Shown here one piece after another: positions 14,699 to 46,607 of a stretch of 64,000 bases of DNA. How positions within the stretch are numbered: the first letter of the stretch is position 1; the number at the start of each line of letters is the position of its first letter. A program made the translations under genes and the position numbers. This stretch comes from Streptomyces sp. SCUT-3 (GTDB lineage Bacteria > Actinomycetota > Actinomycetes > Streptomycetales > Streptomycetaceae): contig NZ_CP046907.1 in NCBI RefSeq assembly GCF_014083985.1, positions 1,778,001 to 1,842,000 on the forward strand, given 5' to 3'. The notes beneath the pieces are model-generated. The model saw nothing but the letters and a program-made list of their open reading frames with translations. It was not told the origin of the DNA and searched no databases.

Positions 14699-14785
14699 GC
14701 CGGGAGCCGGACGCCGGGTGCCCGGATGCCGGGAGCCGGACGCCGGGTGCCCGGATGCCGGGAGCCGGATGCCGGGTGCCCGGGC
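14699..14785. repeat. Three tandem 29-bp repeats directly after glgB
   Basis: Units at 14699-14727, 14728-14756 and 14757-14785. The first two are identical; the third has an A-C-G to A-T-G change and a different last base. Each unit contains CCGGG inverted segments and could fold alone. They begin one base after the glgB stop. Confidence 0.9.
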
Positions 14786-41195: not shown

Positions 41196-44100
41196 GTGCG
41201 TGGCTACGACCGCTACGAGGCTGAGGACCACCTCTCTCAGTTCGAGGCCGAGATGGAGCGGCTGCGGACCGAGCGGGAAAAGGCGATCGACCACGCCGAC
41301 GACCTCGGTTACCAGGTCGAGGTGCTGCGCGCCAAGCTCCACGAGGCGCGCCGCGCCCTGGACCGGCCGCGCGGTTACGAGAACATCAGCCACCAGGCCG
41401 AGCAGCTGCTGCGCAACGCCCAAGTCCAGGCCGACCAGTTGCGGGCCGACGCCGAGCGCGAGGTGCGCGAGGCGCGCGCCTCCACCCAGCGGATGCTCCA
41501 GGAGACCGCCGAGCGGCAGGCCCAGCTGGAGGCCGAGTGGCACGCCGAGGCCGTGGCCCGGCGCCGCCGCCTCGACGAGGAGCTCGCCGAGCGCCGCGCC
41601 ACCGTCGAGGCCCACGTCAACGAGAACGTCGCCTGGGCCGAGCAGCTGCGCTCCCGCGCCGAGAGCCAGGCACGCCGCCTGATGGACGAGGCGCGGGCCG
41701 AGTCCGAGGCCGCGCTGGAGGCCGCCCGCACCGAGGCCCGGCGGATCGCCGAGCAGGCCCGCGAGCGGATGGCCGCGGACGGCGAGGCCGCCCGCGCCGA
41801 GGCGGAGGCGCTGCTGCGCCGCGCCCGCACCGACGCCGAGCGGCTGCTGGCCGCCGCGTCCGCCCAGGCCGAGGAGGCCACCGGCGAGGCCGAGCGGCTG
41901 CGCACCTCCACCCGCAGCGAGTCCGAGGAGGCCCGCCGGGAGAGCGCGGAGCAGACCCGCCGGGCCGAGCGGATGGCCCTGGAGGCCGAGACCGCGCTGC
42001 GCGAGGCCCGCGCCGAGGCGGAGCGGCTGCGGGAGGAGGCCGAGGCCGCCGCGACGAAGCGCCTGGCCGGCGCCGAGACCGACGTCGAGCAGCGGATGCG
42101 CACCGCCCGCACCGAGATCGCCCGCCTGGTCAACCAGGCCACCGAGGACGCGGAGACGGCCAAGGCCGAGGCGGAGCAGATCCGCGCCGAGGCCCGCGCC
42201 GAGGCCGAGCGCCTGGTCGCCGAGGCCGAGGAGAAGGCCCGCACCGCCGCGTCCGAGGACGCCGCGGCCCAGCTGGCCAAGGCCGCCCGCACCGCGGAGG
42301 AGGTGCTGACCAAGGCGTCCGAGGACGCCAGGGCCACCACCCGCGCCGCCGCCGAGGAGGCCGAGCGGATCCGGGCGGAGGCCGCCGCCGAGGCCGCGCG
42401 GCTGCGCGGGGAGGCGGAGAGCGCCGCCGAGCAGCTCAAGGGCGCCGCCCAGGACGACACCAAGGAGTACCGGGCCCGCGCCGTCGAGCTGCAGGAGGAG
42501 GCCCGCCGGCTGCGCGGCGAGGCAGAGCAGCTGCGCGCCGAGGCCGTCGCCGAGGGCGAGCGGATCCGCGCCGAGGCGCGCCGGGAGGCCGTCGCGCAGA
42601 TCGAGGAGGCCGCCGGCAGCGCGGAGGAGCTCCTCACCAAGGCCAAGACGGACGCCGCCGAGCTGCGCGAGAAGGCCACCGGGGACAGCGAGCGGGTGCG
42701 CACCGAGGCCATCGAGCGCGCCTCCGCGCTGCGCCGGCAGGCCGAGGAGGCGGTGGAGCGCGCCCGCGCCGAGGCGGAGAAGCTTCGCACCGAGGCGGAG
42801 CAGCAGGCCCTGGAGACGGCCGGCGAGGCCGAGCGGGCCGCGCAGGAGCTGCGCACGGCCGCCGAGGCCGCCGCGGAGCGCGCCCGCGCGCAGTCGCTGG
42901 CGGAGGCGGAGCGGCGGCGCGAGGAGGCCGACGCGCGGCTGGCGGAGGCGGAGCGTGCCGTGCGCGAGGCGGACGCCGACGCCGAGCGGCTGCGCACCGA
43001 GGCCGCGGAGGAGGCCGAGCGGCTGCGCGCCGAGGCCGCCGAACGGGCACGGGCCCTGACGGAGCAGGCCGAGGCCGAGGCGGCGCGGCTGCGCGACGAG
43101 GCGGCCTCCGACGCCGCCGGGAGCCGGGCCGAGGGCGAGGCCGTCGCGGTGCGGCTGCGCACCGAGGCCGCGGCCGAGGCGGAGCAGCTGCGCGAGGAGG
43201 CCAGGACCGCGGCCGACCGGCTGCGCGCCGAGGCCCAGGCGGCCCGCGAGCGGGCCGAGGCCGAGGCCGCCGAGGCCCTGGCCGCGGCCCGGGAGGAGGC
43301 GGCGCGCCGCAGGCGCGAGGCGGAGAAGCTGCTGGCCGACGCCCGCGGGGAGGCCGAGAACGAGCGGACGGCCGCCCACCGGGAGAGCGAGGAGCTGCTG
43401 GCCGCCGCCCGCAAGCGGGTGGAGGAGGCCGGCGCGGAGGCCGACCGGTTGATCGCCGAGGCCGAGCGGCGGTCGGCCGAGCTGGTCGCCGCCGCGGAGC
43501 AGACCGCCCAGTCGGTGCGCGACGCGGTCGCCGGGCTGCACGAGCAGGCCGAGGAGGAGATCGCCGGGCTGCGTTCCGCGGCCGACCACGCGGCGCAGCG
43601 CACCCGCGCCGAGGCCCAGGAGGAGGCGGACCGGCTGCGCGCGGACGCGCACGCCGAGCGGGAGCGCGCCGCAGAGGACGCGGACCGGCTGCGCCGCGAG
43701 GCGCAGGAGGCGGCCGAGCAGGCCGGCGCCCTGGCGGAGCGCACCGTCGCCGAGGCCGTCGCCGAGGCGGACCGGCTGCGCGAGGAGGCCCGCGAGGAGT
43801 CCGGCCGCAGGCGCGCCGAGGCCGCCGAGCAGGCCGACCGGCTCGTCGCCGAGGCCGTCGCCGAGGCGGACCGGCTGCGCGGGGAGGCGGCCGAGGTCCT
43901 GGCCGGTGCCGAGCGGGACGCGCAGAGCACCCGGCAGGAGGCCGACGCGCTGCGCGACGAGGCCCGCGAGGAGGCCAACCGCAAGCGCACCGAAGCCGCC
44001 GAACAGGCCGACCGCCTCGTCACCGAGGCCCGCTCCGAGGCCGAGAAACTCCTGACGAAGGCCCGCGAGGAAGCGGACGAGCACGTCGCCGCCGCCGAGC

Positions 44101-45569
44101 GGGACGCGCAGAACACCCGGCAGGAGGCCGACGCACTGCGCGACGAGGCCCGCGAGGAGGCCAACCGCAAGCGCACCGAAGCCGCCGAACAGGCCGACCG
44201 CCTCGTCACCGAGGCCCGCTCCGAGGCCGAGAAACTCCTGACGAAGGCCCGCGAGGAAGCGGACGAGCACATCGCCGCCGCCGAGCGGGACGCGCAGAGC
44301 ACCCGGCAGGAGGCCGACACGCTGCGCGACGAGGCCCGCGAGGAGGCCAACCGCAAGCGCACCGAGGCCGCCGAACAGGCCGACCGCCTCGTCACCGAGG
44401 CCCGCTCCGAGGCCGAGAAACTCCTGACGAAGGCCCGCGAGGAAGCGGACGAGCGCGTCGCCAAGGCCGGGCGGCAGGCGGAGCGCCTGGTCATCGAGGC
44501 CAACACCGAGGCCGACCGCATCCGCGCCGAGGCGGACAACCTGGTCGGCGAGGCCGTCGCCGAGGCCGACCGGCTGCGCGAGGAGTCGACCGCGGAGGCG
44601 GAGCGCCTGCACGCGGACGCCGTCTCCGAGTCGGGCCGCCTGCGGGCGGAGGCCGCCGCGGTACTGGCGCAGGCCCGGCGGGACGCCGAGGCGGAGCGCG
44701 AGGAGAGCGCCCGGGCCGCCGCCGAGGCCGCGGCCGAGGCGGAGCGGGTCCGCGACGAGGCCCGCGAGGAGGCCAACCGCAGGCGCACCGAGGCCGCCGA
44801 ACAGGCCGACCGCCTCGTCACCGAGGCGCAGTCCGAGGCGGTCAGGACCGCCGCGGCCGCCGAGGAGCAGGCCGACACCATGGTCGGTGCCGCGCGCACC
44901 GAGGCCGAGCGGATCGTCGCCGAGGCCACCGCGGAGGGCAACGGTGTGGTCGAGCGGGCGCGTACCGACGCCGACACCATGCTGGCCGAGGCCCGGCGCG
45001 ACTCCACCGCGATCCGCGAGCGGGCGGAGGAGCTGCGCCGCCGTGCGGAGTCCGAGGTGGAGGAGCTCCACGAGCGTGCCCGCAAGGAGGCCGCGGAGGC
45101 GATGAAGTCGGCCGGCGAGCGGGTCGACAAGCTGGTCGCCGCGGCCGCCGAGCAGTTGGAGGAGGCCCGGGCCAAGGCGTCCGAGCTGACCTCGAACGCG
45201 GCGAGCGAGGCCGGCAAGGTCCGCATCGCGGCGGTGAAGCGGGCCGAGGCTCTGCTGAAGGAGGCGGAGCAGAAGAAGGCCGATTCCGAGCGCGAGGCGG
45301 AGCGGCTGGTGGCCGAGGCGAAGGCCGAGGCCGAGCGCATGATCGACGGGGGAAGGCGTGAGCTGGACCAACTGGTGCAGCGCCGCAGGGACATCAACGC
45401 GGAGATCTCCCGCGTGCAGGACGTCCTGGAGGCGCTGGAGTCGTTCCAGGCCCCGTCCGCCGGAAACGGCAAGAAGGGGACGGAACGTCAGGAAACCGTC
45501 AAGGCGGGCACCGGTGCGGGCAGCACACGTTCGAACGGCAAGCGTTCTGACGACGCGCCACTCGATTGA
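41196..45569 (+). CDS. scy: Scy-like giant coiled-coil polarity scaffold
   Basis: 1457 residues from GTG 41196 (GGGA 7 bases upstream), which yields the expected start VRGYDRYEAEDHLSQFEAEM; ATG 41166 and 41004 are alternatives. Scy organises the hyphal tip with DivIVA and FilP. The N-terminal 60 residues resemble the DivIVA-type start; then about 1300 residues of nearly unbroken Ala/Glu/Arg coiled coil with hendecad/heptad spacing (AEAERLRxEA-type units), and a C-terminal QLVQRRRDINAEISRVQDVLEAL followed by a polar tail. Residues 906-1091 are three near-identical 62-residue repeats. Slightly longer than the Streptomyces protein (about 1326). Immediately upstream of filP, as in Streptomyces. 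Confidence 0.92.
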   Translation: MRGYDRYEAEDHLSQFEAEMERLRTEREKAIDHADDLGYQVEVLRAKLHEARRALDRPRGYENISHQAEQLLRNAQVQADQLRADAEREVREARASTQRMLQETAERQAQLEAEWHAEAVARRRRLDEELAERRATVEAHVNENVAWAEQLRSRAESQARRLMDEARAESEAALEAARTEARRIAEQARERMAADGEAARAEAEALLRRARTDAERLLAAASAQAEEATGEAERLRTSTRSESEEARRESAEQTRRAERMALEAETALREARAEAERLREEAEAAATKRLAGAETDVEQRMRTARTEIARLVNQATEDAETAKAEAEQIRAEARAEAERLVAEAEEKARTAASEDAAAQLAKAARTAEEVLTKASEDARATTRAAAEEAERIRAEAAAEAARLRGEAESAAEQLKGAAQDDTKEYRARAVELQEEARRLRGEAEQLRAEAVAEGERIRAEARREAVAQIEEAAGSAEELLTKAKTDAAELREKATGDSERVRTEAIERASALRRQAEEAVERARAEAEKLRTEAEQQALETAGEAERAAQELRTAAEAAAERARAQSLAEAERRREEADARLAEAERAVREADADAERLRTEAAEEAERLRAEAAERARALTEQAEAEAARLRDEAASDAAGSRAEGEAVAVRLRTEAAAEAEQLREEARTAADRLRAEAQAARERAEAEAAEALAAAREEAARRRREAEKLLADARGEAENERTAAHRESEELLAAARKRVEEAGAEADRLIAEAERRSAELVAAAEQTAQSVRDAVAGLHEQAEEEIAGLRSAADHAAQRTRAEAQEEADRLRADAHAERERAAEDADRLRREAQEAAEQAGALAERTVAEAVAEADRLREEAREESGRRRAEAAEQADRLVAEAVAEADRLRGEAAEVLAGAERDAQSTRQEADALRDEAREEANRKRTEAAEQADRLVTEARSEAEKLLTKAREEADEHVAAAERDAQNTRQEADALRDEAREEANRKRTEAAEQADRLVTEARSEAEKLLTKAREEADEHIAAAERDAQSTRQEADTLRDEAREEANRKRTEAAEQADRLVTEARSEAEKLLTKAREEADERVAKAGRQAERLVIEANTEADRIRAEADNLVGEAVAEADRLREESTAEAERLHADAVSESGRLRAEAAAVLAQARRDAEAEREESARAAAEAAAEAERVRDEAREEANRRRTEAAEQADRLVTEAQSEAVRTAAAAEEQADTMVGAARTEAERIVAEATAEGNGVVERARTDADTMLAEARRDSTAIRERAEELRRRAESEVEELHERARKEAAEAMKSAGERVDKLVAAAAEQLEEARAKASELTSNAASEAGKVRIAAVKRAEALLKEAEQKKADSEREAERLVAEAKAEAERMIDGGRRELDQLVQRRRDINAEISRVQDVLEALESFQAPSAGNGKKGTERQETVKAGTGAGSTRSNGKRSDDAPLD
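43911..44468 (+). repeat. Three tandem 186-bp repeats in scy
   Basis: Copies at 43911-44096, 44097-44282 and 44283-44468. DNA is nearly identical; protein copies differ at a handful of positions (S/N, A/T, HV/HI/RV). Each codes for 62 residues. A degenerate relative follows near 44742-44860. Confidence 0.93.
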
Positions 45570-45671: not shown

Positions 45672-46607
45672 ATGAGCGACACCTCATCCCCCTTCGGCTT
45701 CGAGCTAGTGCGGCGTGGGTACGACCGCACGCAGGTGGACGACCGCATCACCAAGCTCGTTGCCGACCGCGACAGTGCTCTGGCCAGGATCACCGCGCTC
45801 GAGAAGCGAATTGAGGAGCTCCACCTCGAGACCCAGAACGTCCAGACCCAGGTGAACGACGCGGAGCCGTCGTACGCCGGTCTCGGGGCCCGGGTCGAGA
45901 AGATCCTCCGGCTCGCCGAGGAGGAGGCGAAGGACCTCCGGGAGGAGGCCCGCCGCGCGGCCGAGCAGCACCGCGAGCTGGCCGAGAGCGCCGCCGCGCA
46001 GGTGCGCGCCGACGCCGAGGCGTTCGCCACCGAGCGCAAGGCCAAGGCCGAGGACGAGGGCGTCCGGATCGTCGAGAAGGCCAAGGGCGAGGCGTCGCAG
46101 CTGCGCGCCGAGGCCACCAAGGACGCGCAGAACAAGCGCGAGGAGGCGGACGCCCTCTTCGAGGAGACCCGCGCCAAGGCGGCCCAGGCCGCGGCCGACT
46201 TCGAGACCAACCTGGCCAAGCGCCGCGAGCAGTCCGAGCGCGACCTGGCCTCCCGCCAGGCCAAGGCCGAGAAGCGCCTCGCCGAGATCGAGCACCGCGC
46301 CGAGCAGCTGCGCCTGGAGGCCGAGAAGCTGCGCACCGACGCCGAGCGCCGCGCCCGCCAGACGGTGGAGACCGCCCAGCGCCAGGCCGAGGACATCGTG
46401 GCCGACGCCAACGCCAAGGCCGACCGGATCCGTTCGGAGTCCGAGCGCGAGCTGGCCGCCCTGACCAACCGCCGCGACAGCATCAACGCCCAGCTGACCA
46501 ACGTCCGCGAGATGCTGGCCACGCTGACCGGCGCCGCGGTGGCCGCCACCGGCACCCCGGACGACGAGGGCACCTCCCGCGGCGTCCCGGCCCAGCAGAG
46601 CCGCTGA
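45672..46607 (+). CDS. filP: FilP-like intermediate-filament-type cytoskeletal protein
   Basis: 311 residues, ATG 45672, AGGAA 4 bases upstream. N-terminus SPFGFELVRRGYDRTQVDDRI is a DivIVA-like domain; about residues 25-270 are coiled coil (AEEEAKDLREEARRAAEQHR and similar), ending in LAALTNRRDSINAQLTNVRE, the same end motif as Scy; a disordered tail follows. FilP forms filament networks near hyphal tips and gives rigidity; older annotations call it cellulose-binding protein. Pairs with scy in the same order as in Streptomyces. A 15-bp terminator follows. Confidence 0.93.
   Translation: MSDTSSPFGFELVRRGYDRTQVDDRITKLVADRDSALARITALEKRIEELHLETQNVQTQVNDAEPSYAGLGARVEKILRLAEEEAKDLREEARRAAEQHRELAESAAAQVRADAEAFATERKAKAEDEGVRIVEKAKGEASQLRAEATKDAQNKREEADALFEETRAKAAQAAADFETNLAKRREQSERDLASRQAKAEKRLAEIEHRAEQLRLEAEKLRTDAERRARQTVETAQRQAEDIVADANAKADRIRSESERELAALTNRRDSINAQLTNVREMLATLTGAAVAATGTPDDEGTSRGVPAQQSR

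Follow-up and report, generated by a model that had tools for sequence, protein, structure and literature searches.

The window, by which we mean the whole stretch of 64,000 nucleotides analysed here, carries on its forward strand scy (41196–45569), the gene for the polarized growth protein Scy, a member of a family of long rod proteins that organise the growing tips of filamentous bacteria. Its 1457-aa frame matched the NCBIfam profile NF041483 (growth_prot_Scy) at 1660.2 bits against a cutoff of 1040, which bears out the name given to the gene in the initial annotation; a Pfam profile search returned no match for the protein. The frame opens as (GTG)RGYDRYEA, with the RGYD motif directly after the start and no preceding helix. 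According to the available text of PMC9858780, a start immediately before RGYD without a helix ahead is a criterion for Scy, and we infer that the GTG at 41196 is the start codon. Adjoining scy on the same strand, the list of open reading frames contains a 311-aa frame (45672–46607) that begins MSDTSSPFGFELVRRGYD and carries FGFELVRRGYD. It matched PF05103 (DivIVA) weakly, at 22.4 bits, below the cutoff of 28, and no curated FilP model matched it in the Pfam and NCBIfam profile searches. It is putatively assigned as FilP from its position and its motif, following the description in the accessible part of PMC9858780.

Three consecutive, near-identical copies of a 186-bp unit lie in scy at 43911–44468, corresponding to residues 906–1091 of the protein. 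Copy 1 (43911–44096, residues 906–967), copy 2 (44097–44282, residues 968–1029) and copy 3 (44283–44468, residues 1030–1091) are all on the forward strand and encode 62 aa each. Tandem Repeats Finder delimited the array as 43908–44462 with a period of 186, 3.0 copies, 97% matches and a score of 1034. By direct comparison there are three nucleotide differences per 186 nt between copies 1 and 2, six between copies 1 and 3 and nine between copies 2 and 3, mostly at amino-acid-changing sites. The copies are thus 95–98% identical to one another, whereas the nearest DNA relative of the window Scy among the genes sampled is 81% identical over the N-terminal rod. The array must therefore be much younger than the split from any sampled relative, or have been homogenised, and the recent expansion or gene conversion proposed in the initial annotation fits this well. 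A second locus carrying the unit was sought in the window's own genome, the one genome covered in its genus, and rejected, since all four matches to the unit fall in the scy frame. Codon usage in the array also differs from that in the rest of scy, with GAA used for 8 of 39 Glu codons (5 of 251 elsewhere) and AAA for 3 of 10 Lys codons (0 of 29 elsewhere); because this amounts to two or three GAA and one AAA per unit, the excess may reflect chance in one founder unit.

The coiled-coil register of the array was parsed with an eleven-state model trained on Scy proteins, in which jumps are allowed anywhere; of the 5075 jumps chosen by the model, 3837 are of four states (hendecad to heptad) and 711 of eight states (equal to two heptads). 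In every copy, five hendecads were read after one heptad (QSTRQEA or QNTRQEA), giving 7-11-11-11-11-11 or 17 turns, and a block model agreed. Both parses thus uphold the earlier decomposition of 62 into 5 × 11 + 7, and residues 906–1091 do not resolve into plain heptads. Among fixed patterns over the same residues, 7 + 5 × 11 gave a log-likelihood of −285, compared with −302 for 7 + 6 × 11 and −321 for 7 + 4 × 11; hendecads only (−424) and heptads only (−553) were rejected. The hydrophobic period, taken as the Fourier peak, is 3.65 residues in the array, 3.64 in the whole rod of the window Scy and 3.635–3.65 in the 198 Scy proteins described below, and the period of the window rod agrees with the mean of about 51/14 = 3.643 residues per turn that serves as the criterion for CC51, the repeat described for Scy of S. 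coelicolor. AlphaFold2, run on residues 861–1136 as a single sequence and one chain, predicted helix throughout with a mean pLDDT of 94.7; the model has one four-residue break at residues 974–977, and the matching places in the other two copies are predicted to be unbroken. The model bears on the single chain and not on the dimer.

Scy genes for comparison came from 80 loci of one GTDB genome scan, from 60 regions fetched from 70 matching genomes related to the window, and from 80 regions fetched from 199 matching genomes of the large genus g10, which was taken as Streptomyces and in which 199 of 200 genomes searched had a Scy match. The 245 frames collected, that of the window among them, included 35 truncated at the edge of their locus (30 of these in the short loci L145–L174) and 12 identical to others, which left 198 unique full genes of 1102–1686 aa; the start motif used to find the frames missed L140–L144 and L207. 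One draft genome (G236) had two equally good Scy matches on contigs C145 and C847, perhaps from mixed strains or a duplicated contig. At a threshold of at least 92% identity over 120 nt, near-identical internal duplications were identified in 25 of the 198 genes (window included) and in none of 198 codon-shuffled controls, and chance arising from skewed composition was rejected on this comparison. The duplicated units in the other Scy genes measure 40, 51, 55, 80, 88, 91, 95, 102, 106, 109, 117, 178, 182, 251 and 269 aa. All duplications are in frame, and their lags, from 40 to 269 aa, all deviate by no more than 0.2 turn from an integral number of turns of 3.64 residues each.

Block lengths measured against a reference Scy (L005) revealed that the rod has fixed and variable parts. 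The N-terminal block (L005 residues 120–780) is exactly 660 aa in 168 of the 198 proteins and the C-terminal block (residues 1010–1100) exactly 90 aa in 196, while the zone between them (residues 780–1010) spans 110 to 688 aa, a six-fold range. The array of the window falls in this zone, which is 456 aa long in the window, 230 aa in the reference, and 143 and 154 aa in the window's nearest neighbours (L094 and L098) on a tree made without the zone. Twenty-six of the 30 proteins with another N-block length are L114–L139, fetched from relatives, and these 30 exceptions are often off phase, perhaps through poor alignment. Zone length changes readily. Among 172 genes compared, 61 pairs from close species are 93% or more identical in the DNA of the N block, and 17 of these pairs have zones of unequal length (two of the 17 involve L241, a frame that ends early); at least 77 changes of zone length are needed on the tree among 168 tips. 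Over its first 945 residues the Scy of L241 (genome G225) can be aligned with that of L200 with no large gap, but it ends about 148 residues early (1144 versus 1303 aa), possibly through a frameshift or sequencing error. No report of a variable zone or a whole-turn rule in Scy was found in the titles and abstracts retrieved from open-licence literature on Scy and on coiled-coil length, duplication and evolution.

The lengths of the zone follow whole helical turns. For all 198 genes, with 73 distinct zone lengths, the best period is 3.636 residues (R = 0.72; next 0.21), and periods of 7 and 11 gave R values of 0.124 and 0.105. When only the 168 genes whose N block is exactly 660 aa were kept, their 59 distinct zone lengths gave the same period with R = 0.84 (next 0.25), and for this set the largest R in 2000 random draws, with periods of 3.4–3.9 searched, was 0.42. 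The value of 3.636 is close to the 3.63 residues per turn of an undistorted helix quoted in PMC9858780, where, in the portion available, hendecads are said to give very little supercoiling.

Individual length changes behave in the same way. Of 69 clean zone indels between nearest neighbours, 67 amount to whole turns to within 0.15 turn, and the remaining pair, of 66 and 106 aa, are off by 0.152 and 0.153; such events are not all independent, and after duplicate removal 26 of 28 are in phase. In the rest of the rod, 25 of 41 clean indels are whole turns (33 in frame and 8 out of frame). Outside the rod only 3 of 41 are, where uniform sizes of 1–60 aa would give 30%, although this control is small and shrinks to 9 events after duplicate removal. 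The table of clean indels excludes 714 of 865 events for unclean flanks; when every simple in-frame event was counted under looser criteria, whole turns made up 398 of 553 inside the rod and 50 of 280 outside. For sister tips on the tree built without the zone, all 19 non-zero zone differences (11, 22, 29, 40, 44 and 51 aa) are in phase. These results suggest that the pitch of a coiled coil can be read from indel lengths alone.

In our interpretation, the array arose when a 62-residue segment of 17 turns was recently amplified in tandem and in frame by repeat recombination, with the coiled-coil register acting as a filter, and we place the probability of this reading at about 0.8. Recombination between diverged repeats would generate in-frame tandem copies in the variable zone, selection would remove off-phase variants and keep the register, and additional copies would give the tip-organising centre a longer reach and more partner-binding sites. 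With a helix rise of 0.1485 nm per residue, one unit corresponds to about 9 nm and the two extra copies would lengthen the rod by about 18 nm relative to a one-copy state, in a zone that spans about 16–102 nm among the 198 proteins. In two-hybrid tests reported in the accessible part of PMC3718342, ParA bound each of three separate pieces of about 350 aa of the S. coelicolor Scy rod, and a longer rod may thus offer additional ParA sites.

The removal of off-phase zone variants by selection is argued mainly from indel sizes, since none of the 69 clean zone indels is 1–10 aa long, whereas all 41 outside the rod are 1–7 aa. Whole-turn lengths would, however, be automatic if recombination uses existing repeats that are already in register. 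The prevalence of amino-acid-changing sites among the differences between copies and the often off-phase lengths of the N-block exceptions also count against the main reading. A purely mutational account can be built on such automatic whole-turn lengths, in which units are gained and lost by unequal recombination, the lengths are a side effect and zone length is neutral. Repeat-mediated events would produce the differences observed between sister tips unaided, and the six-fold span of zone lengths looks as if it were little constrained. Weighed against the lack of small indels in the zone, this account seems unlikely to us, while still deserving serious attention.

Another reading places selection on a binding site instead of rod length. 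A 22-residue seed motif with the consensus RDEAREDANRKRSEAAQQADDL occurs five times in the window Scy, at residues 862, 920, 982, 1044 and 1186. The first is a diverged relative N-terminal to the array (43779–43844, forward strand), which scored 29.7 in a motif scan whose 95% limit in shuffled sequences was 22.8, and the last a further diverged copy C-terminal to it (44751–44816, forward strand; score 40.6), the same stretch that gave the fourth match of the 62-aa unit in the window's own genome. The motif at residue 862 is also present in L005, L006, L009, L089 and L091; a second copy follows at residue 949 in L005 and L006, and L009 carries the motif four times (residues 862, 949, 989 and 1029), which looks like an independent expansion at 40-residue intervals. 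The unit might have been selected for this motif, with lengthening as a side effect, and both the correlation of motif count with zone length (Spearman 0.66, 198 genes) and the binding of ParA to three separate rod fragments (PMC3718342) are consistent with that. More room yields more motifs anyway, however, the conservation of the motif (0.64 on average) does not exceed that of other rod segments (median 0.74) and gives no support to a specially conserved site, and the motif was not detected in several genes that carry duplications (e.g., L045, L116 and L137). We regard selection for the motif as quite doubtful.

The initial annotation had likened the unit to the published Scy repeat extended by one hendecad, which would make the array a regular variant of that repeat. 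The repeat is given as 51 aa forming 14 turns in the available text of PMC3718342, and a 51-residue block of one heptad and four hendecads is indeed found by the block parse at residues 841–891, just before the array (43716–43868, forward strand). In the block parse of the 198 proteins, however, heptad-to-heptad spacing comes out irregular in all Scy, and 51 is a minority value. The same parse, in which heptad placement is model-dependent and orthologues are not independent because they share ancestry, yielded 5352 intervals between heptads, with no hendecad in 1099, one in 1022, two in 615, three in 998, four (spacing 51) in 265, five (spacing 62) in 508, six in 242 and more in the rest. Duplicated units of 40, 80 and 91 aa also lie outside any series of 51 plus n hendecads. 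The description as 51 plus 11 thus receives no special support and is improbable; as zone indels in Scy follow whole helical turns, we take the 51-residue figure to express the mean pitch and regard 62 as a single case among many permitted lengths. An assembly artefact, in which the assembler would have added to a true single or double copy, is hardly credible, because the three copies can be told apart at several sites, the window's own genome is a single contig of 6,075,149 bp, and similar duplications are present in L040, L070, L116, L118 and L247, from assemblies listed as complete or as one contig, which argues against artefact as a class.

Beyond the origin of the array by recombination and register filtering, Scy may tentatively be viewed as an evolutionary length dial, in which a recombination-prone zone between the nearly fixed blocks changes in steps of whole turns of a straight alpha-helix and tunes reach and partner sites; we find this conceivable, somewhat short of even odds. 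If it is true, species could adjust the reach of the tip-organising centre and its sites for ParA or other partners without breaking the coiled coil. Coiled-coil size variants produced by recombination between in-frame intragenic repeats are familiar from the streptococcal M protein, which differs from Scy in being a surface antigen under immune pressure, whereas Scy is a cytoplasmic scaffold. Prior knowledge covers Scy, the non-canonical character of its coil and, in general terms, the concept of a rod expanded by hendecads.

Similar to the CC51 repeat of S. coelicolor Scy, as far as it is described in the available text of PMC3718342 and PMC9858780, the window protein belongs to the same family and combines hendecads and heptads at a mean period of 3.64. 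Different from that description, it contains a near-identical 62-residue, 17-turn unit in three copies, and the parse of Scy shows irregular heptad spacing and a length-variable zone. The paralogue FilP resembles Scy in its hendecad-rich rod and DivIVA-like N-terminus (PMC9858780, in the part accessible), but its length is nearly fixed, with 69 of 70 frames in 80 loci at 309–322 aa, compared with 1102–1686 aa for Scy; the one exceptional FilP frame is a 65-aa match. Rod function and register constraints are likewise shared with the coiled coils treated as length-conserved spacers in the review PMC5082667, which are reported there to vary 3.6 times less in length than other regions. Coiled-coil spacers are usually called length-conserved, yet one zone of the Scy rod spans a six-fold range of lengths and changes almost always in whole-turn steps. 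Such a series of natural lengths makes it possible to ask which of the two, rod length or the number of binding sites, determines the size of the tip, branching and the anchoring of chromosomes in Streptomyces.

Two further observations concern repeats and length variation at other positions. A second, smaller place of length variation lies at protein coordinates 1100–1190 of the reference L005, where 149 of the 198 Scy proteins are 11 aa shorter than the reference and others are longer by 7, 14, 40, 51, 62 or 73 aa, mostly whole turns. Elsewhere in the window, a 29-bp tandem repeat of 2.9 copies with 98% matches is located at 14699–14783.
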